Part shown: positions 13,701 through 25,855 of the stretch, one piece after another | How positions within the stretch are numbered: position 1 is the first letter of the stretch | Layout of the letters: each line of letters begins with the position of its first letter | Source: Larkinella rosea | Lineage (GTDB): Bacteria; Bacteroidota; Bacteroidia; Cytophagales; Spirosomataceae | Direction: 5' to 3' | NCBI RefSeq assembly: GCF_003858635.1 | Contig: NZ_RQJO01000008.1 | Coordinates: 310,001-374,000 of the forward strand | DNA: 64,000 bases | Program-made: the position numbers and the translations under genes | The notes under the pieces: model-generated | Database searches by the model: none | Told to the model about the DNA's origin: nothing | What the model saw: the letters and a program-made list of their open reading frames with translations, nothing else

Positions 13701-15132
13701 GCCCTCCACCAATATTGAGGAACAACGAGTGTATACCTATAGCGTGACGCAAACCAGCAACGGTTGCGAAAGCCAGAAAGCGCCAATCACGTTTACCGTC
13801 AACGTTACGCCCAAACCAACGACTGTAACGCCGGTTGTGTACTGCCAGAACGCAGCCGCAAAACCGCTGGAAGCCACGGGGCAGAATCTGAAGTGGACCA
13901 ATCCGTACGGCAACGTAACCACGACCGCGCCCACTCCGCCCACGACGAACATTTCCACCAAACCGGAAGGCGACTCCTACTTTGTTACCCAGACGGCGGC
14001 CAATGGTTGCGAAAGCCGGAAAACCGAGATCAGATTGATTGTCAATGCGCCACCGACGGCTAAAATTGAAGGCACAAAGACGGTAAATCTCGGAAATACC
14101 GTACCGGTCACGATCTCGTTTACGAGCATTCCGCCTTTTAGTTACACATTGTCCGACGGTACGACCGGCACCTCGGAGACCAACCAAAAGGATATTACGC
14201 TTTTACCGACCAAAAAAACCACTATTTATACCGTCACCAACATTACCAATTCCTGCGGTGCCGGAACGCCCGTTGGAACCTTTACGGTTAACGCGGTTAT
14301 TCCGGCCGTTACGACCAATGCCTTGTCGGTAACCACGATCTGCGTCGGAACTCAGGTTCAGGTGCCTTTCACCACCTCCGGGGAGTTTACGGCCGGAAAT
14401 ACGTACCGGGTCGAACTGGCTCCGGTTGCCGATACGGCTTTTGTTAATAAGGTCGAAATTTCAACGGGGGCGATGCAGAGCCCGATAACCGCCCCGATTC
14501 CGACCACGGTGGCGCAGGGGTTGTATCGCGTTCGGGTGACGGCCACCAATCCACAGGTTCCGGTTCCGGGTAGCAGTAGCCCAACGATTCTGAATATCCG
14601 CGCGCTGCCGACCGTTACGTTAACGGGTTCAAAGGACATTTACGACACCCAGGGTACGCCGATTTCCTTTGCCCTGACGGGTGATAGCCCCTGGACGTTT
14701 GAGTATTCGGACAGCCTGAAAACGACCAAAATAACGACCAGCACCAATCCGCACGTCATCACCGTAACGCCGATTAAATCCACGACGTATAAAGTGACGT
14801 CGATTTCCAATTCCTGCGGTACCGGTACCGCAACGGGAACTGCCGTTATTCGGGTGCTTCCGCTGCTCGGTCTGGAACCCGATCCGCTCATCACCGCCGT
14901 CAAGGTTTTCCCGGTTCCGACTCAGAATAGCCTGACCATCGACATTGATTTGCCGTTGCAGAAAGATCCGGCCAGGATACAATTGACCGATCAGAGCGGA
15001 CGAATCTCAAAAGAACTATCGACGCGCCAGCGGCAAACCAAGCTGGATTTAAGTCAGCAGGCCGCCGGTTATTACTTCCTGCAAATCCAGATTGGCGACC
15101 GAACCACGGTACGGAAAATCATGAAACAGTAA
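10747..15132 (+). CDS. giant repeat adhesin-like protein, T9SS type A target
   Basis: A 1461-aa secreted protein. A signal peptide ends near VSAQT. A first domain (about 25-120) is repeated in related form near the C-terminus (about 1185-1285): both contain ALSV..(S/T).C.G..(I/V).VPFTTS. Between them lie twelve Ig-like units of about 75-80 aa, each with a cysteine strand (YCQ), a LKWYGT or LNWYGT strand and a YYVSQ...GCES/GCEG strand, as in CHU_C-associated Ig domains. The end (VKVFPVPTQNSLTIDI ... YYFLQIQIG ... KIMKQ) is a T9SS type A sorting domain. It is probably a cell-surface or extracellular structural or adhesive protein; no enzyme domain is visible. Confidence 0.88.
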   Translation: MNRSLRLYWLLLVVVLGSLGKVSAQTIATGALSVSSVCAGGTISVPFTTSTSSGTFGAGNQFKVQLATASGTFNDIGSGATSPLTGTIPGGASGAGYRVRVVSTNPAVNGSNSSTSLTITAIPGPPGTSDLTYCQGAAPGALTATTSPGATLKWWGTSPSGGSSSSTAPTPSAAAVGSTNYYVSQAIGTCESTRAEITVTVSAVPAAPTTGAAPVYCQNAPASPLSATASAGASLKWYGTSPTGGTASAIAPTPLTNTVGAVTYYVSQAIGDCEGPRTSIVVTVNAKPAPPTVTTPVTVCLGTAVPALSATSGGGNTLTWYGSSATGGTGTTTAPTPATTTAGTINYYVSQKNAGGCESDRVAIAVTIKPIPAAPGVSPVGFCQNETASALTASPTSGGSLNWYGTNASGGTASATAPSPPTSATGTTTYYVSQTVDGCEGPRASLVVTVRNIPAAPNTTTPPAYCQDVVATGLVATPTSGGTLNWYGTNATGGTPSETASIPVTSAAGTTNYYVSQTVNGCEGPRTAIAVTVTSKPAVPTVTASFSYCQGMTASQLTAVVGSGGTANWYGTNPTGGTSTPAGPTPSTTNPGTTTYYVSQTVGGCESNRASISVTVYATPTIPAVSPVSLCQNITSPALSATVTGVGTLNWYGTSATGGTASTTAPIPPTTTPGITTYYVSQSINGCEGPRASLAVTVKPQPAAPTAAASLSYCQASTSVPLSASTSGSLNWYGTSATGGTASGTAPTPSTDAPGTFTYYFSQTVNGCESERANVVVSIKAKPAIPGVQDIRYCQSETAVPLTATFEAGGSLKWYSSASGPSSLTAAPTPSTQAPADFTYYVSQNGANGCESDRGAIKVKIFPIPGVPGVPTAPEVCQNTSPITLAASGESLKWYSGQTGGSALGGAPVQNTNTAGTFTFYVSQTVNLCESPRTAARVVVKPQPALPGVENKSVCQDAPEQTLAANGESLKWFDANGNGLGGAPRPSTNIEEQRVYTYSVTQTSNGCESQKAPITFTVNVTPKPTTVTPVVYCQNAAAKPLEATGQNLKWTNPYGNVTTTAPTPPTTNISTKPEGDSYFVTQTAANGCESRKTEIRLIVNAPPTAKIEGTKTVNLGNTVPVTISFTSIPPFSYTLSDGTTGTSETNQKDITLLPTKKTTIYTVTNITNSCGAGTPVGTFTVNAVIPAVTTNALSVTTICVGTQVQVPFTTSGEFTAGNTYRVELAPVADTAFVNKVEISTGAMQSPITAPIPTTVAQGLYRVRVTATNPQVPVPGSSSPTILNIRALPTVTLTGSKDIYDTQGTPISFALTGDSPWTFEYSDSLKTTKITTSTNPHVITVTPIKSTTYKVTSISNSCGTGTATGTAVIRVLPLLGLEPDPLITAVKVFPVPTQNSLTIDIDLPLQKDPARIQLTDQSGRISKELSTRQRQTKLDLSQQAAGYYFLQIQIGDRTTVRKIMKQ
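11107..14046 (+). repeat. twelve in-gene Ig-like repeats (CHU_C type)
   Basis: Each unit starts with a proline-rich linker such as IPAAP or KPAVP, then the YCQ strand, the WYGT strand with GG, an APTP loop, and the YYVSQ..GCE strand. Units 1-8 are close to one another; 9-12 are shorter and more divergent (WYSS, WYSG, WFDA, WTNP). The two cysteines per unit (YCQ and GCE) probably form an intradomain disulfide. Confidence 0.85.
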
Positions 15133-16406: not shown

Positions 16407-16481
16407 GGAGGATGTAGCTCAGTTGGTTAGAGCGCCAGATTGTGGTTCTGGAGGTCGCGGGTTCGAGACCCGTCTTTCTCC
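16407..16481 (+). tRNA. tRNA-His (GTG anticodon)
   Basis: The cloverleaf is visible: acceptor from G16408 with the extra G(-1) at 16407 typical of tRNA-His, D-arm GCTC/GAGC, anticodon stem CCAGA/TCTGG around the loop with GTG, variable loop AGGTC, and T-arm GCGGG-TTCGAGA-CCCGT. The 3' CCA is not encoded. The 3' end is the attachment site for the element that follows. Confidence 0.95.
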
Positions 16482-16483
16482 CT
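16466..16483 (+). repeat. attL: 18-bp direct repeat in the tRNA-His 3' end
   Basis: AGACCCGTCTTTCTCCCT covers part of the T-loop, the T-stem, the acceptor strand and two nucleotides beyond. The same 18 nt are found again at 25804-25821. The flanking bases differ on both sides, so the repeat length is exactly 18. Confidence 0.92.
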
Positions 16484-16517
16484 AAACCCCTAAAACGACT
16501 TGTTTTAGGGGTTTTTC
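16484..16517 (+). terminator. terminator at the left end of the element
   Basis: AAACCCCTAAAAC (16484-16496) pairs with GTTTTAGGGGTTT (16502-16514), followed by T residues. It starts right after attL, so the element brings a terminator that replaces the native one of tRNA-His, now displaced to 25828. Confidence 0.8.
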
Positions 16518-16524
16518 TTCAAAA

Positions 16525-16539
16525 GGGACAAAAAGGACA
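16525..16539 (+). repeat. GGGACAAAA-type site near the left end (possible integrase arm site)
   Basis: GGGACAAAA-AGGACA lies between attL and the integrase. Near the right end GGGACAAAA-GGGACA occurs at 25746-25760, and an inverted GGGACAAAA at 25670-25678. Paired short words near both ends are what integrase arm-type or excisionase sites look like; this is inference. Confidence 0.4.
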
Positions 16540-16543
16540 TTTT

Positions 16544-16568
16544 TTCTTTGTTGCACTTTGGCAGGGTG
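16544..16568 (+). repeat. 25-bp direct repeat, copy 1 (upstream of integrase)
   Basis: A 25-nt sequence containing TTGTTGCACTTTGGCAGGGT is found identically at 24817-24841. Copy 1 ends 16 nt before the integrase ATG, so it occupies the integrase leader. It may be a regulator-binding site or a secondary recombination site. Confidence 0.85.
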
Positions 16569-16584
16569 TAGAGAAGAAGAAGAA

Positions 16585-17766
16585 ATGAAAACTCTTGAAA
16601 AGTCCTGTATTCAGCCACAGCTTTACACTCCAAAACGCGGTTCTAAGGACACGCGATGGTTTGTATATTTTTCTGTAGCCCATCCGGTTACTGGAAAACT
16701 TTCCCGAAAAAAGGTATACGACAATCTTAACCAGATTTCAGACGATAAAAAACGGATGGAGCGAGTGAAAGAATTGCTCAATTTCTACCGTAGAAAACTC
16801 AACAATGGTTGGAATCCCTACTTAGATAGTAAAAAGGTCTTATACAAGGAATCAGGGCCAAAAGAACCAGAGTTTAAGCAACCACAAATTACAATTTCCG
16901 AACACCTCTTTACTGTACTGAAGGATGAGCAGAAGAGAATTAGAAAAGGAACCTTTTCAGCCTATCAGTCACAAATCAGAATATTCCAGGAATGGCTACA
17001 AAAAAGTGGATATGGGAGCTTAGAAATTACTCAGTTGACGAAAGAGCATGCAAAGCAGTTTGTTGGAGAGCTAGAAAAACATAACACAACAGTAAACGCT
17101 TACACAGCTAATATGCGTCACTTGTTCCGCTTATTGATGGAGAAAGAGGTTATACTAACAAATCCATTTGTAGGTATTAAGAAACTACCCACTACCAAGA
17201 CTCCAAAACAGTATTTTTCTACCCTGCTACGGAATCAGCTACAAAGCCACGTTTCAGCTAAATATCCTGAAATGTGGCTTTGTATTCAACTTATTTACTA
17301 TTGCTTCATTAGACCAAAAGAAATCCGAGATTTGAGAATAGGTGATATTGATTTAGAATCAAATACAATTTTATTACGAGGTGAGATATCAAAAAATAAA
17401 AAAAGTGAGCAAGTTGTAATACCTTCCCAGCTTCGAAAAAATTTATTAAGTTGGGGGGTAGATAAATATCCAAGAGACTATTTCTTATTTGGAAAAGATG
17501 GTAAACCCGATAAATTCAGAAGGGGGAAAAATCACTTTGGTAATACTTTCCGCATTATAATAAAGGAGCTTAGAATTACTGGAAATTATTCATTATATAG
17601 TTGGAAACACACAGGAGCAGTAATGTTCTATCGGCAAACGAAGGATATAAAAACCCTTCAGTTACAAATGCGACATCACTCGTTAGAAGAAACTGACAAG
17701 TATTTAAAAGGCCTTGGGGCATTAGAAAGTGAAGCATTATTGAATTTTTTTCCAACAATTTCTTAA
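16585..17766 (+). CDS. tyrosine recombinase/integrase of the element
   Basis: A 393-aa integrase expected to insert and excise the element at tRNA-His. I use the ATG at 16585; the open frame to a TTG at 16558 runs through the 25-bp repeat. An N-terminal Arm/SAM-like region (about 100-200) precedes the catalytic domain: Arg in FIRPKEIRDL, Lys in NKKSEQVVIP, then LYSWKHTG, MRHHSLEETD and the nucleophile Tyr in DKYLKGL. The second box reads Y-S-W-K-H rather than H-x-L-R-H, a variant I believe is common in Bacteroidota integrases. It is adjacent to attL, as usual. Confidence 0.92.
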   Translation: MKTLEKSCIQPQLYTPKRGSKDTRWFVYFSVAHPVTGKLSRKKVYDNLNQISDDKKRMERVKELLNFYRRKLNNGWNPYLDSKKVLYKESGPKEPEFKQPQITISEHLFTVLKDEQKRIRKGTFSAYQSQIRIFQEWLQKSGYGSLEITQLTKEHAKQFVGELEKHNTTVNAYTANMRHLFRLLMEKEVILTNPFVGIKKLPTTKTPKQYFSTLLRNQLQSHVSAKYPEMWLCIQLIYYCFIRPKEIRDLRIGDIDLESNTILLRGEISKNKKSEQVVIPSQLRKNLLSWGVDKYPRDYFLFGKDGKPDKFRRGKNHFGNTFRIIIKELRITGNYSLYSWKHTGAVMFYRQTKDIKTLQLQMRHHSLEETDKYLKGLGALESEALLNFFPTIS

Positions 17767-17860
17767 TAAAAGGTTACGGTATTAAAAGCGGGTTTAATGT
17801 GTTTTTTATATTTATTGTTCACTTTATTTATGATTTCCGGGCGATTAAAATACAAAAATT

Positions 17861-18994
17861 CTATTGAAATCTTTTCTGTAAAATTAAATAATAATCATGT
17901 GCTTTTGCAATAGAGTTCAAAGCTTCTGCTTTTGTAACAGGCAAGACTCCTTCGCTTCCATGAATAATTTTATTTCTCCTGCCTTTAATTTTATCAATTT
18001 CCTTTATTATTTCTTTTTCTTCTTTTGTAAGGCTAAATAATACTGGAATTTCTAAATTAAGTTTATAGTTAAATGTTACCTCTGGTCTATCGAATTCTTT
18101 AATTATTTTTTCATCTATACCTGCTCTTATTTTAAACATCTTTATATATCTATATGTGACACTTTCGGCAAAAGTGAAAGCTTCTAATAGTGCATATTTA
18201 TAATTGTTATTTATATGAATTTCTCTCAATACTCTAGAAAAAATATCAGAAAGCTCTAATTTTCCAGCTGGGTCGTTACTACTTATCACAGCCATAAAAT
18301 TATTTTCTACATTAGGAGTTTCAATAGGAATATCTCTATTTATTTTGGTAAAAAATCCATTTTCATCAAATTGGCCTCTGTAGCCTTCAAATTTTTTTGT
18401 ACCATACGGATCATCTCCAAATCTTTTTCGCATTTCATTTTGTGAAACATTGGTGTCAAATATATATTCAACAATTTCGAAATATAATGGATCACCTGAA
18501 TTAGACATTGGTGTTATACGATAATCAGCAGCTGCCTTTATATAACTATCAATAGCTACAGTAAAGGCATTTTTATAAAATTTAATATCTATATCTGCAA
18601 GAGAATTATTTTTAGTATCAACATTAAATAAATAATGTAACAAAACTAATTCTGATTGATTTATATTAAATGATATTTTCCTAGCATTAGCCATAACACC
18701 TTTAATTGGGATCGGCACTTGAGCCACCATAGCAATTGACGAGTTATTAAATTTTCCAGTTAATTCAATTGTGCCTTCTGGAATAATTGAATTATTCGTT
18801 TTAATAGTATATGAGTCTCCATTTAGGCTATATTCTTTTTCATAATCAATAGTATTTAATGCTTTAAAATTTCTTAATATACCAAATTCAATTTTATCTT
18901 TTTTAATATTATCTAATGCATATAATTTAGAAGTAGGTAATTTTATTGTGCCTGCATAGAAACATGTTACTCTGCGCAATATGTTATTTTTCAT
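17861..18994 (-). CDS. hypothetical cargo protein with HEPN-like C-terminus
   Basis: A 377-aa protein starting at ATG 18994 (MKNNILRRVTCF; a TTG at 19003 also fits). The first 250 residues match nothing I know. The C-terminus has helices and a RxxxxH motif in GRRNKIIHGSEG followed by TKAEALNSIAKAHDYYLIL, as in HEPN nucleases or Apea-like HEPN proteins of defence systems. Codon use is strongly AT-rich. As cargo of an integrated element it is a candidate anti-phage or superinfection-exclusion gene; the function is inferred only. Confidence 0.7.
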   Translation of the reverse strand: MKNNILRRVTCFYAGTIKLPTSKLYALDNIKKDKIEFGILRNFKALNTIDYEKEYSLNGDSYTIKTNNSIIPEGTIELTGKFNNSSIAMVAQVPIPIKGVMANARKISFNINQSELVLLHYLFNVDTKNNSLADIDIKFYKNAFTVAIDSYIKAAADYRITPMSNSGDPLYFEIVEYIFDTNVSQNEMRKRFGDDPYGTKKFEGYRGQFDENGFFTKINRDIPIETPNVENNFMAVISSNDPAGKLELSDIFSRVLREIHINNNYKYALLEAFTFAESVTYRYIKMFKIRAGIDEKIIKEFDRPEVTFNYKLNLEIPVLFSLTKEEKEIIKEIDKIKGRRNKIIHGSEGVLPVTKAEALNSIAKAHDYYLILQKRFQ

Positions 18995-19057
18995 AAGAAG
19001 CAAAATTTATATTATGAGTTAAATTAAAAAACATGATTATTCAAGTACTTGTTGAAT

Positions 19058-19525
19058 TTATTTGGAAGGGTAATTATTGCTTTTTAACATACCTTCCAAG
19101 CTACTTTTAATTGTTATCAACGCTTGATTTGGGTTCATACACAAACAAGGGGTAGCCAATTTCACATACGGTTTATAAGTATGAGAAAGTTCTACATTCA
19201 GGCCATTATTAGCGACAAATCGAATGGATTCAATACTTGTGAATAGAATATATATGTAATCAGAATCTCGCGGATTTATACTAGAAGAGAACTTAAATGC
19301 ATCTGATCCTAAGAATTTCTCTTTCCCTGCAAAAAAGAGCGGTGTCATTGCATTATTTGAATTGCCCAGCTCTAAAACAGCTAAAGCGTATTGAGGACTG
19401 TAACATTTGAATGTAATAATGTATGTATTTCCGTCTGGACCTTTACCACTATAGATTGCTGATTGTTGCGCTATTGCGACAGACATACCGAAACAGAAGA
19501 ATATGATAGACAGATAGACTCTCAT
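19058..19525 (-). CDS. secreted hypothetical cargo protein (155 aa)
   Basis: The start at ATG 19525 gives a clear signal peptide MRVYLSIIFFCFGMSVAIAQQ. The mature part is about 134 residues and beta-rich with no recognised domain (SGKGPDGNTYIITFKCYS..., CLCMNPNQALITI). A longer open frame to 19609 has no signal features. It lies 63 nt upstream of the HEPN-like gene on the same strand, so they may form one transcript. The function is unknown. Confidence 0.55.
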   Translation of the reverse strand: MRVYLSIIFFCFGMSVAIAQQSAIYSGKGPDGNTYIITFKCYSPQYALAVLELGNSNNAMTPLFFAGKEKFLGSDAFKFSSSINPRDSDYIYILFTSIESIRFVANNGLNVELSHTYKPYVKLATPCLCMNPNQALITIKSSLEGMLKSNNYPSK

Positions 19526-19705
19526 TTGTTTTGGCTTTAGACGTTCAATTTGGGCAATATTACCAGAACTGCCGTAATGATACAAACTTATATAATTCAC
19601 TTGGGGCAAATTAGAAGGTCAAGTTGCAGTGTTGAAAATTTCAGCTATGTGATTGTCCGGACTATGGGCGTGATCGATAATTCACAGTTAACTCGGCCCG
19701 ATACA

Positions 19706-19740
19706 ACAAAAACCCCCAAGTAATTAGATACTTGGGGGTT
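19706..19740 (-). terminator. terminator after the 19771-20463 gene
   Basis: AACCCCCAAGTA (19711-19722) pairs with TACTTGGGGGTT (19729-19740); on the minus strand the stem is followed by TTTTTGTTG. It ends the membrane-anchored protein gene and separates it from the secreted protein gene. Confidence 0.85.
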
Positions 19741-19770
19741 AAAATCAATCATGGCAAATAATCAAAAAGT

Positions 19771-20463
19771 CTAATGGTTGGCAGTTTTATGCTTTTTATT
19801 ATAAATAATAAAAGATAATAGAATAATGAACATCGGCACTAAATTATCTAAAGCCTTATTTCCTGCTGCTTCTGATTCAATATCTTCCAATTCGATTTTA
19901 TATGCATTGAATTCAGCTTGCAAATATTCCATTTGTCCCGTTAAATAAGGTATAGCCTGCGCAGCTTCGCTTTGAGCTTCGCCTTGTTTAATTGCCCCAG
20001 TTCTAGACAACACGTAAGCAGCTCCTTTAATTAATAATCCGAATGGTTGCGCTAATTGTGCAGTTGTTCCAACGGTACCAACAATCGACCCCGCATAACT
20101 TTGCCAATTTGGGACTTGTGCTTTGTTCGCAACTCTGTCAATTTCTATGACATAGCGATCAGCTAAGTTTTTGATCCTTGTTAATTGTGCATTGACAAAT
20201 ACTTTACGATTTTCATACTTCCCTTTACCATAATCCATTTCTGCAATTTCATGCTGTTGAACAGGATCAATACCGAGTAAAGGCTTATAGAAAATTTGTG
20301 GATTTATAACCGTAAATGGATTCTTTTTATTAGCTGGATCAATAGTGGCAACAACAGTTCCACTTGCATCTTTTAAGGTAACTTTAGGGGCTTCTGGTTT
20401 GCTGAATATATCAGCAACTACTTTGCCTTTACCTATTTTCTTTCCAAACAATCGAATAGCCAT
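19771..20463 (-). CDS. hypothetical protein with C-terminal membrane anchor
   Basis: A 230-aa protein; the start is taken at ATG 20463 (MAIRLFGKKIGKGKV). Residues 20-60 are a beta-rich Asp/Thr/Val stretch, 70-110 contain an Arg/Asp-rich helical region, and about 130-160 are a hydrophobic Gly/Ala-rich stretch. The last 20 residues before the basic tail (NLVPMFIILLSFIIYNKKHKTANH) form a tail-anchor-like membrane helix. I recognise no family. A tail-anchored protein carried by such an element could act at the host membrane, for example in exclusion; this is speculation. Confidence 0.6.
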   Translation of the reverse strand: MAIRLFGKKIGKGKVVADIFSKPEAPKVTLKDASGTVVATIDPANKKNPFTVINPQIFYKPLLGIDPVQQHEIAEMDYGKGKYENRKVFVNAQLTRIKNLADRYVIEIDRVANKAQVPNWQSYAGSIVGTVGTTAQLAQPFGLLIKGAAYVLSRTGAIKQGEAQSEAAQAIPYLTGQMEYLQAEFNAYKIELEDIESEAAGNKALDNLVPMFIILLSFIIYNKKHKTANH

Positions 20464-20570
20464 GAATGTGATATTTAATGGACAAAAATAACACGTAAAT
20501 ATACAAATTTTCACAATTTTAAATAATTTACACTATTTTTATAATATCATTATTCGCAAATATCATACAT

Positions 20571-20774
20571 ATGAAAACAGAAAGTTTTATCTCTAAAGCT
20601 GGTCTTGTTCAACTATACTGCACAAACTATCATTCTTTTTCTTTAGCGATTGAGCCAATAAAGGAACAAATTGGGTGGAAAGAAGGGAAACAATTATTCT
20701 CGCCAAAGATTGTCAGGATTATATTCGATTATTTGGGAGAGCCATTAACAAGAGAGGAACTGATAATCAAATAA
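20571..20774 (+). CDS. small hypothetical protein (67 aa)
   Basis: An isolated + strand ORF with start ATG 20571 (MKTESFISKAGLVQLY) and end EPLTREELIIK. It is mixed charged/hydrophobic and could be a small helical regulator. It has no recognisable family. Its upstream 100 nt are shared with the divergent gene at 20463. Confidence 0.5.
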   Translation: MKTESFISKAGLVQLYCTNYHSFSLAIEPIKEQIGWKEGKQLFSPKIVRIIFDYLGEPLTREELIIK

Positions 20775-20967
20775 TTAATAGCGTTATCAAGTAAATTTTA
20801 GAGATTTCATCCAATATTTTTTAGTTGATTCAAAAATATTAAATTGTCTTAAAAGTTGACAATATTCCTTAATGAACTGATAACAAACACATTATAGCAT
20901 TACAAAGTATCAAAAATATTTGAATTCCAGTAAAATATATCCGATAACATTCTATTTTAGTAGAGAA

Positions 20968-21013
20968 AACTCTAAACTTTTTGATAGTTGTAGCTATCAA
21001 AAAGTTTAGAGTT
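20968..21013. terminator. long bidirectional terminator
   Basis: A perfect 20-bp stem (20968-20987 with 20994-21013) with a 6-nt loop, followed by T-runs on both strands. It ends the minus-strand recombinase gene at 21017 and any + strand transcript from 20571. Confidence 0.9.
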
Positions 21014-21016
21014 TTT

Positions 21017-22054
21017 TTAGACTTGTTTTGATTCAAACTCATTAATTAAGCGGTTTTCCCTGAGTCTTGCATATTTCTTGACATAATCAGTATCAGTATG
21101 CCCTAACATCAATGCTACCGATTCTAGCGTATAGCCTTCAGTATTTAAATAGTAATCTGTAAATGTATCTCGCGCTCGACTACAATATAGGTGTTTAGTG
21201 CTTGCAATTTTTCCAGCTTTTACAAGCAATTTATTATATGCCGATCCACGCGACGGAAAAGGCAATTTATCAATCCCCCCATAGTATCTTGCAATTGCTT
21301 GCGCTTGTTCAGAATAGGGAACGACGGCTAAAACAGCGGTTTTCTGTCTGTTTTTTTTAAGGTATTTTTGTCCGTTTTTCTCTATTATATTTTTATTAGT
21401 AAGCGATTTCGCGTCTGCATAATGGAACCCTGTATAAAGTTGAAACCAGAAACATTCTACAGCATCTCTCAAATCCTCTGGAAAATTAGTAGTGAACATT
21501 TTTAATAATTCATCGCTGGATAATGGCTCAGGCTCAGGGCGGGTAAACTTATCTGGCTTAAATCCTAGGATTGGAGAGCTTGGTAAAATATCGGTTCCAA
21601 CGGCATGATGGAAAACGGTTTTAACAAATGCGAGTACACTGTTTATTGTACTTCCTTCATAATTTTCACTTATCATCCATTCTGTAAACTTACGCATGAA
21701 ACCTGCCTTTAAATTCCTTGCAGGGACCAATTCCATACCTGATTTTTGGGCGTAAAAGGCAACTACATTTGCCCGTATACGATAGCCTTTTACAGTTGAT
21801 TCAGCACGTTTTACATTCCGTCGAGAGAGTATAAAATCATCCATCAAAGAAATGATCGTTGGCTCATTTGAAACAACTTCTGTATCTGGTTGCGTGATTG
21901 TGTCAGGAATTGATATTTGTCCATTAAGCAATTGCCGTAAACGATTGTCCATCGACTTCATAAATGAATTAATCTCTTGATAAATATTGACTAATTCGTT
22001 TGCAGAATTAGATTGAAATTGGGTGCTAGTCTGAATGGTGTTGCTAGTTTTCAT
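21017..22054 (-). CDS. second tyrosine recombinase of the element
   Basis: A 345-aa site-specific recombinase with an N-terminal coiled region, a SAM-like core-binding domain (about 75-175) and a catalytic domain. Visible: LYTGFHYADAKSLT, where the usual catalytic Arg I is His; KKNRQKTAVLAVVP; CSRARDTFTDYYL; LMLGHTDTDYVKKYAR with the Tyr nucleophile. Loss of Arg I is known in a branch of Bacteroidota recombinases. With a separate integrase at attL, this may be an invertase, resolvase or directionality factor, or come from an earlier element. The 22-bp iteron array lies directly upstream. Confidence 0.88.
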   Translation of the reverse strand: MKTSNTIQTSTQFQSNSANELVNIYQEINSFMKSMDNRLRQLLNGQISIPDTITQPDTEVVSNEPTIISLMDDFILSRRNVKRAESTVKGYRIRANVVAFYAQKSGMELVPARNLKAGFMRKFTEWMISENYEGSTINSVLAFVKTVFHHAVGTDILPSSPILGFKPDKFTRPEPEPLSSDELLKMFTTNFPEDLRDAVECFWFQLYTGFHYADAKSLTNKNIIEKNGQKYLKKNRQKTAVLAVVPYSEQAQAIARYYGGIDKLPFPSRGSAYNKLLVKAGKIASTKHLYCSRARDTFTDYYLNTEGYTLESVALMLGHTDTDYVKKYARLRENRLINEFESKQV

Positions 22055-22088
22055 GGTCTTTTTTGTAGGTTATGATTTTGCTTTCAAA

Positions 22089-22242
22089 ATGGTCGAAAAT
22101 AGTGCCCTAAAAGTGGTCAAAAAGTGTCCTAAAAGTGCCCTAAAAGTAGTCGAAAAGTGCTCTAAAAAGCGGTCTAAAAGCGCCTAAAAAGCGGTCTAAA
22201 AGCGCCTAAAAAGCGGTCTAAAAGCGCCTAAAAAGCGGTCTA
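22089..22242. repeat. 11/22-bp iteron-like array
   Basis: About fourteen 11-nt units of the form (C/T)CTAAAAG(T/C)G(C/G). The right part holds three perfect 22-nt units at 22162-22183, 22184-22205 and 22206-22227 and a partial fourth to 22242; the left part is more degenerate (TCAAAAAGTGT, CCTAAAAGTGC). One unit per helical turn places all copies on one DNA face, as in initiator-binding iterons. The last unit overlaps the primase stop codon (22240-22242). Confidence 0.88.
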
Positions 22243-23130
22243 TGTATTAGTGTAGCGCATTAGGAAGTCATTGAAGTCATTATACCCCGCATAAATCCCT
22301 CGGTGATCTATCACATTTACTCCCTTTTCAAGTAGTTTTTGATATGCACTATCACCTGCTTTATCGTTATCAAGAAAGCAATTGACTACCGGTGCAAGTT
22401 GTATTTGTTCCATTGCCCTGTTTAAATGAGTTGTGGAATTGAGAATGAGCGATGGATTGTGAAGCTGTTTAGTCTTGCAGTAAACCAGACACGACAGGAA
22501 GTCAAAGAATCCTTCAAATAAATTCAGTGCATTTGCGTTCACGCTGCTGGCTCCTTCAATAAAAGTGTAGTCACCTTTTCCAATCCAGCATTTGAACTTT
22601 TCGCTTCTGATTGCCCAACTGCCACAATTGGTCGAAAACCCGATACCAAAGCGTTTTTGTCCTTTACTTAGAAAATGTATCTCTTTACAGTAGTTCGATG
22701 CGTAGGCGTCAGGAATGCCGCGTTGATTTAGATATTTAAGTAATGCCTGGTGCTGGAGATGGATTATAGCGACGATTTCAAGTTTGGTTTCTGATTCGAC
22801 GCTATAAGAGTTTTGGCCGATAAGGAAAAAGTAAGGCTTATTCGAGTCTGCTTGTAAAGCGGCTACTGCTTGGGGAAAACTGAAGCGATTCAGCCGCGCG
22901 ACCAAATCAATAATGTCACCACCTAAATACCCATCTACTTTACCATAAGAAAAGTCTGCGAAGGTATTAGCAACTGGATCGACGTAAAAGGAAGCTGTTC
23001 GTTCATTTGTGAGTGGAGAGCGATAAAGAAACTTACTTCCAGTTGCAACCGGTTCATGTCCGAGCTTTTGTAAGTATGCAACGATTGAAATCTCTTTCTT
23101 AATTCTCGCTATTTCTTTTAATGAAATCAT
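22240..23130 (-). CDS. DnaG-like primase (CHC2-derived N-domain plus Toprim)
   Basis: A 296-aa protein. Residues 1-100 match the CHC2 zinc-finger fold region of mobile-element primases (YRSPLTNERTASFYVDPVANTFADFSYG...GGDIIDLVARL), but the cysteines are absent, as in primases of Bacteroides mobilizable elements. The C-terminal half is Toprim: the catalytic Glu in NLFEGFFDF and the DxD-type motif in NCFLDNDKAGDSA. It probably makes primers for replication of the excised element. The helicase gene lies upstream with the octamer cluster between them; the iteron array follows its stop. Confidence 0.85.
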   Translation of the reverse strand: MISLKEIARIKKEISIVAYLQKLGHEPVATGSKFLYRSPLTNERTASFYVDPVANTFADFSYGKVDGYLGGDIIDLVARLNRFSFPQAVAALQADSNKPYFFLIGQNSYSVESETKLEIVAIIHLQHQALLKYLNQRGIPDAYASNYCKEIHFLSKGQKRFGIGFSTNCGSWAIRSEKFKCWIGKGDYTFIEGASSVNANALNLFEGFFDFLSCLVYCKTKQLHNPSLILNSTTHLNRAMEQIQLAPVVNCFLDNDKAGDSAYQKLLEKGVNVIDHRGIYAGYNDFNDFLMRYTNT

Positions 23131-23296
23131 ATGAGTAATGCTAAAAGATTATACATGTTGATCGATGTAACTCAGAATGGAAATTTCCAAAAACCAATTC
23201 TTTTTTCTTATCGGCTAAATATTAGAATAATTCAATTATTAGTATTACATGAATCATTCTAGAGAATTAAAAATGTTCAAGTCATGCATACCACTC
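23131..23296. other. AT-rich spacer upstream of primase
   Basis: AT-rich DNA between the octamer cluster and the primase start. No gene or clear promoter is seen. Together with the cluster it forms a 394-nt non-coding stretch, a plausible unwinding region for a replication origin. Confidence 0.4.
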
Positions 23297-23481
23297 TTAC
23301 CACAGCCATTTCTGTTTGATAATCAGATATTTATATGTGGTAAGTGGGAAATTTCAAGTTACCACATTTAAAATTTCTCCTTCATTTGTGGTAAGGTTGT
23401 GGTAACTATGTGGTAGGTATAAGTTACCACATATTATACGTTAATAATCAAGCAGTTAAGATGTTGTGGTAACTGTGGTAA
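23297..23481. repeat. cluster of TGTGGTAA octamers, candidate replication origin
   Basis: Eight perfect copies of TGTGGTAA lie in 185 bp: forward at 23336, 23387, 23398, 23465 and 23474; inverted (TTACCACA) at 23297, 23359 and 23424; and a 7/8 copy at 23409. The 8-mer should hardly occur at all by chance in this length. The cluster sits between helicase and primase in AT-rich DNA, which fits an initiator-helicase binding origin as in satellites and P4-like elements. Confidence 0.8.
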
Positions 23482-23524
23482 GTATAAGTAAGTAAACTTT
23501 TAATTTTGGAAAGCAAGCTAAAAA

Positions 23525-24736
23525 TTACGTTTGAACTTGCTCAAGTAAATAGTATCCAAATGGGGTAAGTGGTCCAATTCTTTTCTTGTCTCTCTTTATA
23601 CCTAATTGTGAGAGTGCAGTTCCAATTGATTGGCTACCTAACTTTATCTTATTTTCGGTTTTGACCCTTAGATCAAGTTCAATTTCAGTAGCAGTCATAA
23701 ATCTGGCATTAGGAGTGTTTTTGTCTGCACCTATATAATATTTTGAGATCAAAACCATTTCATTTGTTTGGTTCTGATATTGTACGTTATTTTTTCCAGA
23801 GTATGTTATTTCATCTTGGGTTAAATTATACCTATACCCAGATTTAAGTAATCCCACCGCATGACTCCAAATTTTATTAATATCTAAAGAACAGTATCCT
23901 TGCGGACCTCCATTATCGTGTTTGATAGTTTTAACTTCAAATATTAACCATCGAACACTTCCAGTGCTATCAGTTAAAAATTCTTGCTGGTTTGTTGAAG
24001 CAAAAAAAGATGCTCTTCTTCTCATATAACTATCACTTTTATCATAAGGAAGTCGCACTTTTATTTGATCCTTTGTAAAATAAGATTTGGCTTTATTAAT
24101 ATCGTACTTACTAAAAGTTGCCAACTCGTCAAGATTAATAAATAAATTCTCAGCTAAAGACCGTTCACCGTCTTTACCCTCAAATTCAATATTCTCTTTC
24201 ATGTATTTTTTCAATTTAGGAGGGCATAAAAATCGAAAAAATGACGTTTTTCCGTCATTTTGTGGCCCTACAAGTGTGAAGCAATGTTTATTAAAACTTA
24301 TTTTATCTAATGCTAGTGCTACTACTCTTACAAGCATCATTTTAAATTGATGCTTAAAGAAATTAATCTCATCTTGATTATTACCAACTTCAATGTAATT
24401 TAATAATTCATCAATATAATCTGGCATTGTAGAATTCCATGCAGGTAAAGATTCAAAGTATTCTTTTATAGGATCGTATTTTTCGACCTCCGGACAAGTA
24501 ATAAGCGTAGAAAGCATTTTGTCAAATCCAGTAAAACCCATCATGTAAAGCTCATGCGATAGATGGGCAGGATTCATTACTTTCCATTCAATTTCTCCCT
24601 TCAATTTGTATTCAATATCAACTGATACTGAATTAAATCTTAAATCATATTTATCAAACAAATAACTTTGAATTTGCTTATATTTTAGAATTGGTCCTCT
24701 TTTGTTTTCTTGCGATTCATTATTATTTTTGCTCAT
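23525..24736 (-). CDS. VirE/D5-type SF3 replicative helicase
   Basis: A 403-aa P-loop ATPase. Visible: Walker A GPQNDGKTSF, Walker B-like LFINLDELATFS, then an arginine-rich sensor region YMRRRASFFASTNQQEFL and SVRWLIFEV, all typical of VirE (virulence-associated E) proteins of Bacteroidota mobile elements. The N-terminus lacks the separate primase domain of full-length VirE, and the element encodes a separate primase. The C-terminal 70 residues look like a winged helix (MTATEIELDLRVK...ALSQLGIKRDKKR) and could bind origin octamers. It is likely the initiator/helicase of the element. Confidence 0.85.
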   Translation of the reverse strand: MSKNNNESQENKRGPILKYKQIQSYLFDKYDLRFNSVSVDIEYKLKGEIEWKVMNPAHLSHELYMMGFTGFDKMLSTLITCPEVEKYDPIKEYFESLPAWNSTMPDYIDELLNYIEVGNNQDEINFFKHQFKMMLVRVVALALDKISFNKHCFTLVGPQNDGKTSFFRFLCPPKLKKYMKENIEFEGKDGERSLAENLFINLDELATFSKYDINKAKSYFTKDQIKVRLPYDKSDSYMRRRASFFASTNQQEFLTDSTGSVRWLIFEVKTIKHDNGGPQGYCSLDINKIWSHAVGLLKSGYRYNLTQDEITYSGKNNVQYQNQTNEMVLISKYYIGADKNTPNARFMTATEIELDLRVKTENKIKLGSQSIGTALSQLGIKRDKKRIGPLTPFGYYLLEQVQT

Positions 24737-24766
24737 TGTTTTGGGGTTATTGGTGAGTAATTAGTG

Positions 24767-24799
24767 AAGGCACTTGCTTAGGGGGCAAGTGCCTTTTTT
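24767..24799 (+). terminator. plus-strand intrinsic terminator in the helicase leader
   Basis: AAGGCACTTGC (24767-24777) pairs with GCAAGTGCCTT (24785-24795), followed by T residues on the + strand only. No + strand gene ends here; transcripts stopped at this point would be antisense to the helicase gene. On the minus strand the same hairpin lies 30 nt before the helicase ATG and could be a leader structure. Confidence 0.7.
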
Positions 24800-24816
24800 A
24801 TTTAATAATCACATAA

Positions 24817-24841
24817 TTCTTTGTTGCACTTTGGCAGGGTG
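24817..24841 (+). repeat. 25-bp direct repeat, copy 2
   Basis: Identical to 16544-16568 in all 25 positions. This copy lies 5 nt after the stop codon of the small HTH gene, in the region upstream of the helicase gene. One copy each before the integrase and before the replication genes would suit a shared regulator site. Confidence 0.85.
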
Positions 24842-24846
24842 CTTTT

Positions 24847-25062
24847 TTAAATTAATTCTGTGATACTGAATTTAAAGTGCGACGCTATTGCGCTAGCTTC
24901 TTTCAGCGTGGGAACTGTTTCACCACGATAAATTTTCGCAAACCGGTGCTTATTGATTTTTACCGATTCATAAAAGCTCTTTTGAGGCTTGAAATCAATT
25001 CCTTCGGGGAATTGTGATAAAATTGCATCTGCAATTTTACTGTGCGTATGTTGCGCAGTCAT
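24847..25062 (-). CDS. small HTH protein (71 aa), Cro/excisionase-like
   Basis: A 71-aa protein: MTAQHTHSKIADAILSQF... KHRFAKIYRGETVPTLKEASAIASHFKFSITELI. Residues 30-71 have the helix-turn-helix pattern of the lambda-repressor/XRE fold. It is divergent from the larger XRE regulator at 25177 and starts 5 nt from a perfect palindrome. The likely role is the early or anti-repressor arm of a two-gene switch, controlling the replication genes that follow on the same strand. Confidence 0.65.
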   Translation of the reverse strand: MTAQHTHSKIADAILSQFPEGIDFKPQKSFYESVKINKHRFAKIYRGETVPTLKEASAIASHFKFSITELI

Positions 25063-25066
25063 AGTG

Positions 25067-25100
25067 TTATGTTATTTAGATGTGGTGCTAAATAACATAA
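25067..25100. promoter_or_regulatory. perfect 13-bp palindrome, operator of the HTH switch
   Basis: TTATGTTATTTAG (25067-25079) and its exact complement (25088-25100) with an 8-nt spacer, located between the two divergent regulator genes. This is the expected size and place for a dimeric repressor operator. Confidence 0.75.
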
Positions 25101-25164
25101 TCACTACTTAATATGCAAATTATCGTAATGTATTTTGTCGTTTTATTTATAGGGGTGTCAAATC

Positions 25165-25172
25165 TAAATTTG
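25165..25172 (+). promoter_or_regulatory. -7 box immediately before the XRE regulator
   Basis: TAAATTTG matches TAnnTTTG. It ends 4 nt before the GTG start at 25177, so transcription should begin at or within the first codons, which suggests a leaderless mRNA. Confidence 0.5.
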
Positions 25173-25176
25173 CATC

Positions 25177-25650
25177 GTGGCAAACATCTACGAAAATATC
25201 CGCAGCTTTAGAGCTGAAAAGGGTCTAACTCAAGAAGATATGGCTGAGAAGCTTGGAATTAACCAAGGAAGCTATGCCCGATTAGAGAGAGGGGAGACAG
25301 AATTGACTCTAAAACGTTTAGACCAAATTGCGGCAATCTTTGAAGTAGATGGTACACAAATCATTCAAAAGGGAGAAAATCTTCTAGAAGAAGATCCAAG
25401 ACTACTCGTTGCAAAAATCCATTCATTGCAAAAAGAGAACGAGCGATTAAAAGCTCAAATCAAAGAATTGGAACTAGAAGGTAGTGAAGACATTAGTTCA
25501 TATCAAAAGAAGATTTCCGATTTAGATAAAGATCTTAAACACCTGAAAGGAATAAACAAGATTTTAGATGATCGGATTTTAGAAAAGGATAAACTAATAC
25601 TTGAGAAGACACAAATGATTGAAATTTTAATGAGCCTTGCAAAAAAGTAG
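25177..25650 (+). CDS. XRE-family repressor with C-terminal coiled coil
   Basis: A 157-aa protein starting at GTG 25177 (ANIYENIRSFRAEKGLTQEDMAEKLG). Residues 5-62 are an HTH_3 domain (LTQEDMAEKLGINQGSYARLERGETELTLKRL pattern, given here in part). Residues 75-150 are a long heptad-like coiled coil (LQKENERLKAQIKELE... DKDLKHLKGINKILDDRI). It is probably the maintenance repressor of the element, dimerising or oligomerising through the coiled coil. It is divergent from the small HTH gene around a shared operator. No protease (LexA-like) domain is present, so induction by RecA-type cleavage is unlikely. Confidence 0.8.
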   Translation: MANIYENIRSFRAEKGLTQEDMAEKLGINQGSYARLERGETELTLKRLDQIAAIFEVDGTQIIQKGENLLEEDPRLLVAKIHSLQKENERLKAQIKELELEGSEDISSYQKKISDLDKDLKHLKGINKILDDRILEKDKLILEKTQMIEILMSLAKK

Positions 25651-25669
25651 CAGATGTTAAATCTGTCTC

Positions 25670-25763
25670 TTTTGTCCCAAGACAACTCGTTGATTATAAA
25701 TATTTTACACTATAATAAGGGCTTAAAGAAAAACCTGTTTTTTAAGGGACAAAAGGGACAAGG
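25670..25763. repeat. GGGACAAAA sites near the right end
   Basis: One inverted copy (TTTTGTCCC, 25670-25678) and a tandem pair (GGGACAAAA 25746-25754, GGGACAAGG 25755-25763). They mirror the site at 16525-16539 near the left end. They may be arm-type sites for the integrase. The remaining sequence to attR holds only a short hairpin (25767-25788) and no gene. Confidence 0.4.
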
Positions 25764-25803
25764 AGAAAACCGCCTTTTTTGCGGTTTTAAAGGGGGTGTT
25801 AAA

Positions 25804-25821
25804 AGACCCGTCTTTCTCCCT
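25804..25821 (+). repeat. attR: 18-bp direct repeat of the tRNA-His end
   Basis: Identical to 16466-16483. It is followed by the terminator at 25828, which was presumably the native tRNA-His terminator before integration. Confidence 0.92.
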
Positions 25822-25827
25822 CTTATC

Positions 25828-25855
25828 GGCCCTGTTTTTTGACAGGGCCTTTTTT
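25828..25855 (+). terminator. displaced native terminator of tRNA-His
   Basis: GGCCCTGT (25828-25835) pairs with ACAGGGCC (25842-25849), followed by six T residues. It lies 6 nt after attR, the distance expected if it originally ended the tRNA-His transcript. Confidence 0.8.

Follow-up and report, generated by a model that had tools for sequence, protein, structure and literature searches.

A 9.4 kb integrative element in a tRNA-His gene of Larkinella rosea, possibly a satellite-like hitchhiker, with a backbone mostly common to provirus-like elements

The window analysed here, a 64,000 bp stretch of Larkinella rosea contig NZ_RQJO01000008.1, includes 9.4 kb of mobile DNA (16466–25821) that lies in the tRNA-His gene and is bounded by an 18 bp repeat of the tRNA 3' end, as had been predicted originally from the sequence. 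The repeat, AGACCCGTCTTTCTCCCT, is the att core. When the downstream DNA was permuted in two-base blocks, the longest tRNA-derived match in 200 shuffles was 13 bp. In seven of the eight other Larkinella genomes, both flanks are conserved around tRNA-His and the element is absent; in the eighth (L284) the right flank alone matched, and there was no tRNA in the stretch examined. These empty sites show directly that integration occurred at the 3' end of tRNA-His. The GC content is 48–60% to the left of the element, 26–42% within it and 39–49% over the first kilobase to the right, and the tRNA was the sole Rfam match above threshold. The features are as follows.

16408–16482, + strand: tRNA-His(GTG), the attB target, its 3' end restored by the element (ARAGORN, Rfam, empty sites)
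16466–16483, + strand: attL core repeat, 18 bp
16484–16518, + strand: terminator-like hairpin carried by the element and adjoining the tRNA (read by eye; self-inverted match)
16523–16539, + strand: paired GGGACA repeats, left end, probable integrase arm-type sites
16544–16568, + strand: 25 bp direct repeat, copy 1, in the int1 leader
16585–17766, + strand: int1, tyrosine recombinase of a tRNA-targeting family (Pfam PF00589, 9e-12)
17861–19003, − strand: HEPN-domain protein with an RNKIIH (Rx4H) motif, cargo (PF18735, E 1.7e-4, below the curated cut-off)
19058–19609, − strand: g3, small cargo protein with a signal-like hydrophobic N-terminal stretch (hydrophobicity)
19771–20463, − strand: g4, protein with a C-terminal hydrophobic stretch, distant kin of a first operon gene of provirus-like relatives (kind B, see below)
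20571–20774, + strand: DUF4248 protein (PF14053, E 1e-6)
21017–22054, − strand: int2, second tyrosine recombinase, short N-terminus (PF13102, E 2.5e-6)
22084–22242: 11/22 bp tandem array upstream of int2 (repeat analysis)
22240–23130, − strand: CHC2 zinc finger/TOPRIM primase (PF01807, PF13155)
23298–23480: iteron region, nine TACCACA in both orientations, predicted replication origin
23525–24736, − strand: VirE/VapE (SF3-type) helicase (PF05272, E 1.6e-32)
24766–24796, + strand: terminator-like hairpin with a T-run on the + strand (terminator scan)
24817–24841, + strand: 25 bp direct repeat, copy 2
24847–25062, − strand: hthS, small HTH protein (PF13443, E 0.036, weak)
25177–25650, + strand: hthL, HTH repressor-like protein, divergent from hthS (PF01381, E 1.7e-14)
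25744–25760, + strand: paired GGGACA repeats, right end, probable arm-type sites
25804–25821, + strand: attR core repeat, 18 bp

All ten genes of the element are open. Pfam confirmed the integrase, primase and helicase named in the original prediction, and both of the repeat arrays that it listed are real. The larger member of the divergent HTH pair was likewise confirmed, and the match of the smaller is weak. Not reported there were int2, the DUF4248 gene, g4, the GGGACA repeat pairs and the 25 bp direct repeat.

The hairpin beside attL was not flagged by the terminator scan, which does list the original host terminator, now to the right of attR at 25828–25849. Similar hairpins, and pairs of short repeats, were seen by eye in many leaders of int1-family genes, and a tRNA lies beside the gene in 17/29 loci of int1 homologues. 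The GGGACA pairs just inside both ends are probably integrase arm-type sites; a third copy, 82% alike, is at 20477–20493.

The two copies of the 25 bp repeat are identical, 8,273 bp apart, and the only occurrences of its 16 nt core in the genome at up to one mismatch. A conserved integrase leader was considered and rejected, as the relatives compared yielded one match with six mismatches (L049), and near matches to the core elsewhere in the order fall in unrelated genes. The repeats and the presence of two recombinases could instead indicate two nested elements, with an inner unit (16544–24841) carried by an outer tRNA-His element. However, both recombinases and the entire replicon would then belong to the inner unit and the outer one would have none, and the second copy is located between hthS and virE, the place of the integrase in capsid-free relatives. 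As the repeat also has no copies in the relatives compared, save that in L049, we regard nesting as very improbable.

The HEPN-domain protein, whose RNKIIH motif was read by eye, is a candidate abortive-infection RNase; PADLOC returned no match for it or for the other three proteins of the cargo region that were searched. No family match was found for g3 in Pfam, PHROGs, NCBIfam or PADLOC. In int2, the position of the ArgI residue is occupied by His in the alignment.

The nine TACCACA sites, all of the exact copies in the element, lie in the virE–primase gap. This gap holds iterons with lineage-specific sequences in every one of the 17 regions tested (the window and 16 relatives, which have 4–10 copies), the motif for each region being the commonest word from an earlier 7-mer count. 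The array opens with two forward copies 8–16 bp apart in 15/17 regions and ends with a reverse copy in 17/17. In the window, copies in mixed orientation lie between the end sets, directly 3' of virE. Each gap taken whole, the AT content is 64–75%. By the cruder 7-mer count, four of the 17 regions were not above shuffles at 5%. Because position and layout are conserved among the relatives, we read the gap as the replication origin.

Homologue searches matched further genomes, in which chosen loci alone were examined in full, and these relatives fall in two kinds. The first are capsid-free tRNA islands, 6–13 kb long where the ends could be located. Several of them carry defence genes, and their cargo includes Pycsar-, GmrSD-, HD-CE- and nSTAND3-Mrr-like proteins among others. 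The second, here named kind B, are provirus-like elements of 16–22 kb that carry lysis genes and encode numerous small membrane proteins. No terminase was recognised in them, and their being viruses at all is inferred. Kind-B elements, found in Spirosoma, Fibrisoma and relatives, among them Spirosoma terrae and Fibrisoma limi, share with the element the iteron replicon, DUF4248, the int1 or int2 families and a distant g4 relative, but they also have roughly 15 genes in a row, mostly small, that are missing from the element; these include a lytic transglycosylase or endolysin and, in some elements of the kind, spike-like proteins. When families from this operon (c0, c4–c6, c9–c16, c20 and c21) were searched against the 16 ORFs of the element with hmmsearch, none scored below E 0.004; the best, c5 against hthL (E 0.0046), was judged to be chance.

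That the backbone is mostly common to provirus-like elements was not visible from the sequence of the window alone. The best-scoring relatives of six genes (int1, g4, DUF4248, int2, primase and VirE) are in kind B, with 61% identity to the DUF4248 protein of G033 and 47% to the primase of G072; the best match to int2 is in G010, and the preference of VirE is narrow (373 versus 369 bits). Those of the HTH pair are in capsid-free islands, hthS being 52% identical to its homologue in L154. VirE also matches PF19263 (DUF5906; E 1.5e-7). In a tree it groups with six kind-B replicons with support of 97/99, but its branch is long (0.8) and the placement less sure than the support suggests. The B label in this tree is by replicon: G188 carries it without the operon, and B_G101 falls elsewhere. 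The similarity of g4 is weak, at about 25 bits (phmmer 3e-6 to both L271:4626-5237 and L134:9786-10424), and none of the operon-family profiles matched it, c16 included (best E 0.03). It adjoins the DUF4248 gene, as does its relative in G033; the homologue in G010 is at the opposite end of the operon.

As most of the backbone is common to provirus-like elements, a real rival to the satellite reading is that the element is a kind-B provirus stranded by deletion, which still integrates and may replicate but has lost transfer. The six backbone genes, the distant kinship of g4 to a first operon gene and the lack of a visible helper in the genome would all fit such a history. Simple decay sits less well with ten open genes and exact att repeats, and HTH genes from another source together with unshared cargo point to module exchange. 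The operon families are, moreover, absent from 36/44 VirE loci, though some of the 36 are short contigs (L031, L036, L039, L041 and L046) where absence says little, some genomes were counted twice, and L140, which has no VirE, was left out. The gene block is thus not always embedded in a full prophage, and the form without operon genes seems to be maintained. We consider a deletion remnant somewhat unlikely. In one pair, G188 and the provirus-like element of G206, the regulators, VirE and iterons are 86% identical in DNA over 2.6 kb, and in G188 the operon families are all missing from the DNA within 15 kb of VirE.

As originally predicted, no relaxase (Pfam) and no terminase, portal or capsid gene (PHROGs) was recognised among the ten proteins. 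Their PHROGs matches were to families of integrases, primases/helicases and regulators; in addition, int2 weakly matched a connector family (E 0.008). The genome as a whole has no match to PF03432 and no convincing large terminase, and we rejected both a relaxase-bearing mobilisable element and an ordinary tailed prophage. The kind-B marker c4 was found in none of the nine genus genomes, that of L. rosea included; the same profile matched 22/222 family genomes. Searches of the ten proteins for PICI genes of the interference or terS type returned no match in Pfam, PHROGs or NCBIfam, whose models miss some interference genes, and no packaging gene or signal was identified in the element. Of the predicted satellite or in-trans mobilised element, a site-specific, probably replicating element without recognised transfer genes therefore stands, and no helper was found.

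Conjugation from its own oriT, with a relaxase supplied in trans, would also account for an element in which virion genes are not recognised. Integrative elements with only an oriT exist, according to the excerpted text of PMC11389934, and PF03432 relaxases are present in 3/9 genus genomes, on other contigs than the capsid-free islands there. However, L. rosea itself has no such match and, among the loci read, the closest replicons and the g4 relatives are in elements with lysis genes. We judge this route quite unlikely.

P4 integrates at tRNA-type sites, a likeness to the element. Further likenesses to P4-like satellites, as portrayed in part of PMC8628076, are primase-helicase replication and a cargo hotspot. 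Psu, delta, AlpA, epsilon and alpha families are absent from the Pfam matches of the ten proteins at E 0.1, and membership was rejected. Like PICIs, in the sections of PMC6092414 consulted, the element has a site-specific integrase, a divergent regulator, a primase and replication initiator, accessory genes, and iterons in AT-rich DNA that follow the initiator gene directly on its 3' side; its specific attachment site is the 18 bp att in tRNA-His, empty in 7/8 other genus genomes. The PICI origin described there lies 3' of the initiator and consists of AT-rich DNA with a set of iterons on either side; the array of the element starts with a forward pair and finishes with reverse copies, with mixed copies between. 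The element differs in its initiator–origin–primase order, VirE/VapE-type initiator, lack of a terminase match and phylum, Bacteroidota. PICMIs, in the portion of PMC10803314 available, are likewise small and without capsid genes, with an integrase, a DUF5906 replication gene, short direct repeats and, in some members, defence cargo. They are defined by an integrase, AlpA and primase next to fis, and the element, at tRNA-His, with no AlpA match, a separate primase, a length of 9.4 kb versus 6.1 kb and a host from an unrelated phylum, was rejected as a member.

Kind B resembles FLiP (Finnlakeviridae, MF361639) in its lytic transglycosylase, which matches the FLiP lytic structural protein (E 8e-44), though enzymes of this family have matches in many tailed phages as well (302 records). 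From the part of PMC5894146 used, FLiP too has small membrane-anchored proteins and no recognisable packaging ATPase. The FLiP capsid protein had no convincing counterpart in kind B. Neither c4 nor c14 matched isolated phages, and c14 and c10 gave nothing useful against solved structures; with its profile, c4 picked up annexin repeats (E 2.6e-7). In IMG/VR, a single VirE sequence found no relative and a VirE alignment found 223 distant ones, while c4 led nowhere in either form.

We give about an even chance to the reading of the element as a site-specific integrative, satellite-like hitchhiker, which probably also replicates. Int1 would join it to, and separate it from, the 3' end of tRNA-His, and the divergent layout of hthL and hthS suggests that they keep it quiet. 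After derepression, VirE and the primase would copy the circle, starting at the iterons that separate their genes, as the conserved position and layout of the iterons suggest. Because no particle or conjugation gene was recognised, exit from the cell would be in trans. The most likely vehicle would be the particles of a related provirus rich in membrane proteins, namely kind B, with which the element has in common the replicon, DUF4248, recombinase families and a first operon gene. One might speculate that g4 is what the element keeps to engage that particle. The cargo (the HEPN protein and g3) probably protects the host against other phages.

More broadly, the element may belong to an undescribed, phylum-wide class of Bacteroidota satellites that share one replicon (VirE, lineage-specific iterons and primase) with tail-less, membrane-protein-rich proviruses, pass between capsid-free and capsid-bearing forms by module swaps, parasitise those proviruses and carry defence genes, but we think this unlikely. 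Such elements in Bacteroidota were not described in the titles and abstract openings of the open-licence papers searched. If the satellite reading is true, capsid-free hitchhikers form a widespread family in Bacteroidota, with defence genes present in several, and their likely helpers are provirus-like elements without a recognised capsid protein or terminase. The shared replicon with its lineage-specific iterons offers testable helper–satellite pairs. G188 is without the provirus operon that G206 has, but their regulators, VirE and iterons are almost the same, which makes the two a natural comparison.

The 3' end of the tRNA-His gene is exactly duplicated as an 18-mer at the two ends of the 9.4 kb element (16466-25821), confirming the direct repeats of the original prediction. 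The longest tRNA-derived match seen by chance in 200 shuffles was 13. The repeated features are as follows.

16408-16482: tRNA-His(GTG), identified with ARAGORN
16466-16483 and 25804-25821: the two 18-mer copies of the tRNA-His 3' end
16544-16568 and 24817-24841: perfect 25 bp direct repeat, one copy in the leader of int1 and the other between hthS and virE

When the right flank was used to query the nine genomes of the genus, an empty site was found in seven of the eight other genomes, where the left flank with tRNA-His adjoins the right flank and the element is absent; the eighth returned a match to the right flank only. The left flank includes tRNA-His and a gene that, by eye, is superoxide-dismutase-like. 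The original tRNA-His terminator is now to the right of attR, and an element-borne hairpin, seen by eye but not flagged by the terminator scan, lies beside attL. The anatomy of the element and its integration are well supported. Inspected by eye, a 1461-aa frame further left (10747-15132) has numerous domain repeats and, at its C-terminus, a sorting-like domain.

Relatives of the element's VirE at E ≤1e-80 were found in 40 of 222 family genomes, its own included. Two kinds of relative were distinguished, namely capsid-free tRNA islands (kind A) and unnamed provirus-like elements with lysis genes and an operon of small genes (kind B). All 14 kind-B operon families are missing near VirE in 36 of 44 VirE loci, and at least three are present in eight; at least two are present in 5 of 80 named phylum loci, a set that overlaps the 44. 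Kind A islands are frequently at tRNA-Asn, -Val or -Ser, measure 6-13 kb in those cases where flanking tRNA-derived repeats were located, and usually have the order hthL / hthS, integrase, virE, primase. Proteins of kind A matched Fic, Pycsar-like cyclases and effector, GmrSD, HD-CE ATPase, nSTAND3-Mrr, AbiEii-like and astacin families, and no relaxase, terminase or capsid family was found among the 30 proteins scanned (six loci and two proteins of a seventh, including two integrases and one flank gene). One locus, L037, encodes a ClpP-like serine protease, a fold that occurs also in phage head proteases. In genome G176 (L145, 4819-18242), two capsid-free islands are in tandem with other genes in between, and their VirE proteins are nearly identical (end branches 0.005 and 0.007).

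Kind B elements are 16-22 kb, and seven of the ten read are at tRNA-Ala or tRNA-Phe. They include a run of approximately 15 mostly small genes, with lytic transglycosylases (SLT match; family c0, often in two copies) or endolysins, and some elements add a beta-helix or tail-fibre-like protein. Many of the proteins have a hydrophobic stretch (11/16 in Spirosoma terrae). Neither a terminase nor a major capsid protein could be recognised in kind B; one protein from genome G101 weakly matched a 'virion structural protein' family (E 6e-4). The lysis and spike-like genes suggest that kind B is a virus. The c4 profile, which marks kind B, matched in 22 of the 222 genomes of the family and in none of the nine from the genus. 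The kind B elements in G033 and G010 encode a Rep_1 replication protein, with the G010 match falling short of the curated cut-off, and VirE was seen in neither. A conserved membrane-anchored kind B protein (L147:2785-3453 and relatives) matches annexin repeats of solved structures (E 2.6e-7), and a recombinase of the G033 kind B element (L133:9757-12110) is interrupted by an IS3-like insertion with 88- and 265-aa frames (by eye).

The best relatives of the element's genes, ranked by score, are listed below.

int1: kind B, G101, 34% identity
g4: kind B, G033, 21%
DUF4248: kind B, G033, 61%
int2: kind B, G010, 29% over 349 aa (a kind A homologue, 31% over 238 aa, scored lower)
primase: kind B, G072, 47%
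VirE: kind B 49%, kind A 48%
hthS and hthL: kind A, 52% and 42% (kind B matches not useful)

No relative of the HEPN protein or g3 was found in this comparison. As the best relatives are split by gene between kinds B and A, we conclude that the element is a mosaic. In a VirE tree of 38 rows it clusters, on a long branch, with six kind B replicons (support 97/99). A profile search found none of the kind B operon families in the element. g4 matches ORFs in G033 (L271:4626-5237) and G010 (L134:9786-10424) at approximately 3e-6 (2651 ORFs searched). The G010 homologue in turn matches L138:1420-1953 in G101 (4e-6), and the G033 homologue, though not g4 itself, matches c16, the profile of the first operon gene (E 3e-7). 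In G033 and G101 the g4 relative is the first operon gene and is divergent from DUF4248, the layout seen for g4 in the window. Two points speak against this link, the lack of a c16 match for g4 and the placement of the G010 homologue at the opposite end of the operon.

Nine exact copies of TACCACA are present in the element, all in the gap between virE and the primase gene (mean 0.02 when the gap was shuffled). In 16/16 relatives, the same gap holds 4-10 copies of a lineage-specific related motif (TACTACA, TACAACA or the six-base TACTCG). Motifs were picked from the commonest word in each region, and the commonest-7-mer count was not above shuffles at 5% in 4 of 17 regions (the islands of G002, G001, G005 and G003). 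The array opens with two forward copies 8-16 bp apart in 15 of 17 (exceptions, the islands of G003 and G065) and ends with a reverse copy in all 17, with intervening copies in both orientations. PMC6092414 describes the PICI origin as two iteron sets flanking an AT-rich region, immediately 3' of the initiator gene. The virE-primase gap is alike in form and is a predicted origin. Across 2.6 kb comprising the regulators, VirE and iterons, the DNA of relatives G188 and G206 is 86% identical, and across an additional 0.4 kb it is 88% identical; the intervening primase genes did not align in the same search. No kind B operon family was found within 15 kb of VirE in G188.

In the recombinase family of int1, a tRNA (Ser, Ala, Phe, Leu, Arg, Pro or Gly) is beside the gene in 17 of 29 fetched homologue loci, and the leaders, inspected by eye, frequently combine a hairpin with paired short direct repeats. 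The element has a repeat pair, AAGGGACAAAA(A/G)GGACA (family D3), close inside each end, with a third copy of 82% similarity at 20477. The D3 pairs are probably integrase arm sites. By eye, alignment indicates that the short N-terminus of int2 lacks the arm-type domain present in kind A integrases, that the ArgI position of int2 is His, as in the G010 relative, and that the box II Arg, later His and Tyr are retained. Between DUF4248 and int2 (20966-21015), a perfect 22 bp inverted repeat followed by a T-run is a strong terminator candidate. The 16 nt core of the 25 bp repeat has only the element's two copies in the host genome (≤1 mismatch). As int1 is transcribed in the opposite sense to hthS and virE, transcripts of its leader and of the spacer between hthS and virE would be complementary over 25 nt. 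P4 immunity works through RNA pairing and, speculatively, the complementarity might link excision with replication in a similar way.

The predicted absence of a relaxase gene held, as neither a Pfam search of the ten element proteins nor a PF03432 search across the host genome returned a relaxase match. In G002, G003 and G007, PF03432 matches are on different contigs from the islands. The phrog_2 family, which we take to be the large terminase, matched the host genome only at E 5e-5, in a stretch also matched in all eight sister genomes. As PF03432 and c4 are absent and the phrog_2 stretch is common to all sisters, no resident helper is visible. The absence of recognised transfer genes and the kinship with provirus-like elements make a satellite, a capsid-free hitchhiker leaving the cell in trans and most likely in kind B particles, the best single explanation, to which we give an even chance. 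A satellite is one of the two readings originally proposed, and no sign of packaging was found.

Isolated Flavobacterium and Cellulophaga phages have VirE relatives at 33-35% identity among the matches listed (377 records in total). The best IMG/VR relative (37%) is in L173, an environmental viral contig of 19 kb. Besides VirE, L173 encodes DUF4248, a lytic transglycosylase resembling that of FLiP, a P-loop ATPase and, by eye, a possible coat protein of 189 aa; the contig perhaps represents a distant, free relative of kind B. In three further IMG/VR entries classed as viral (L177, L180 and L181), the VirE element has a tandem pair of tyrosine recombinases at one end, and the stretch examined contains no kind B operon family.
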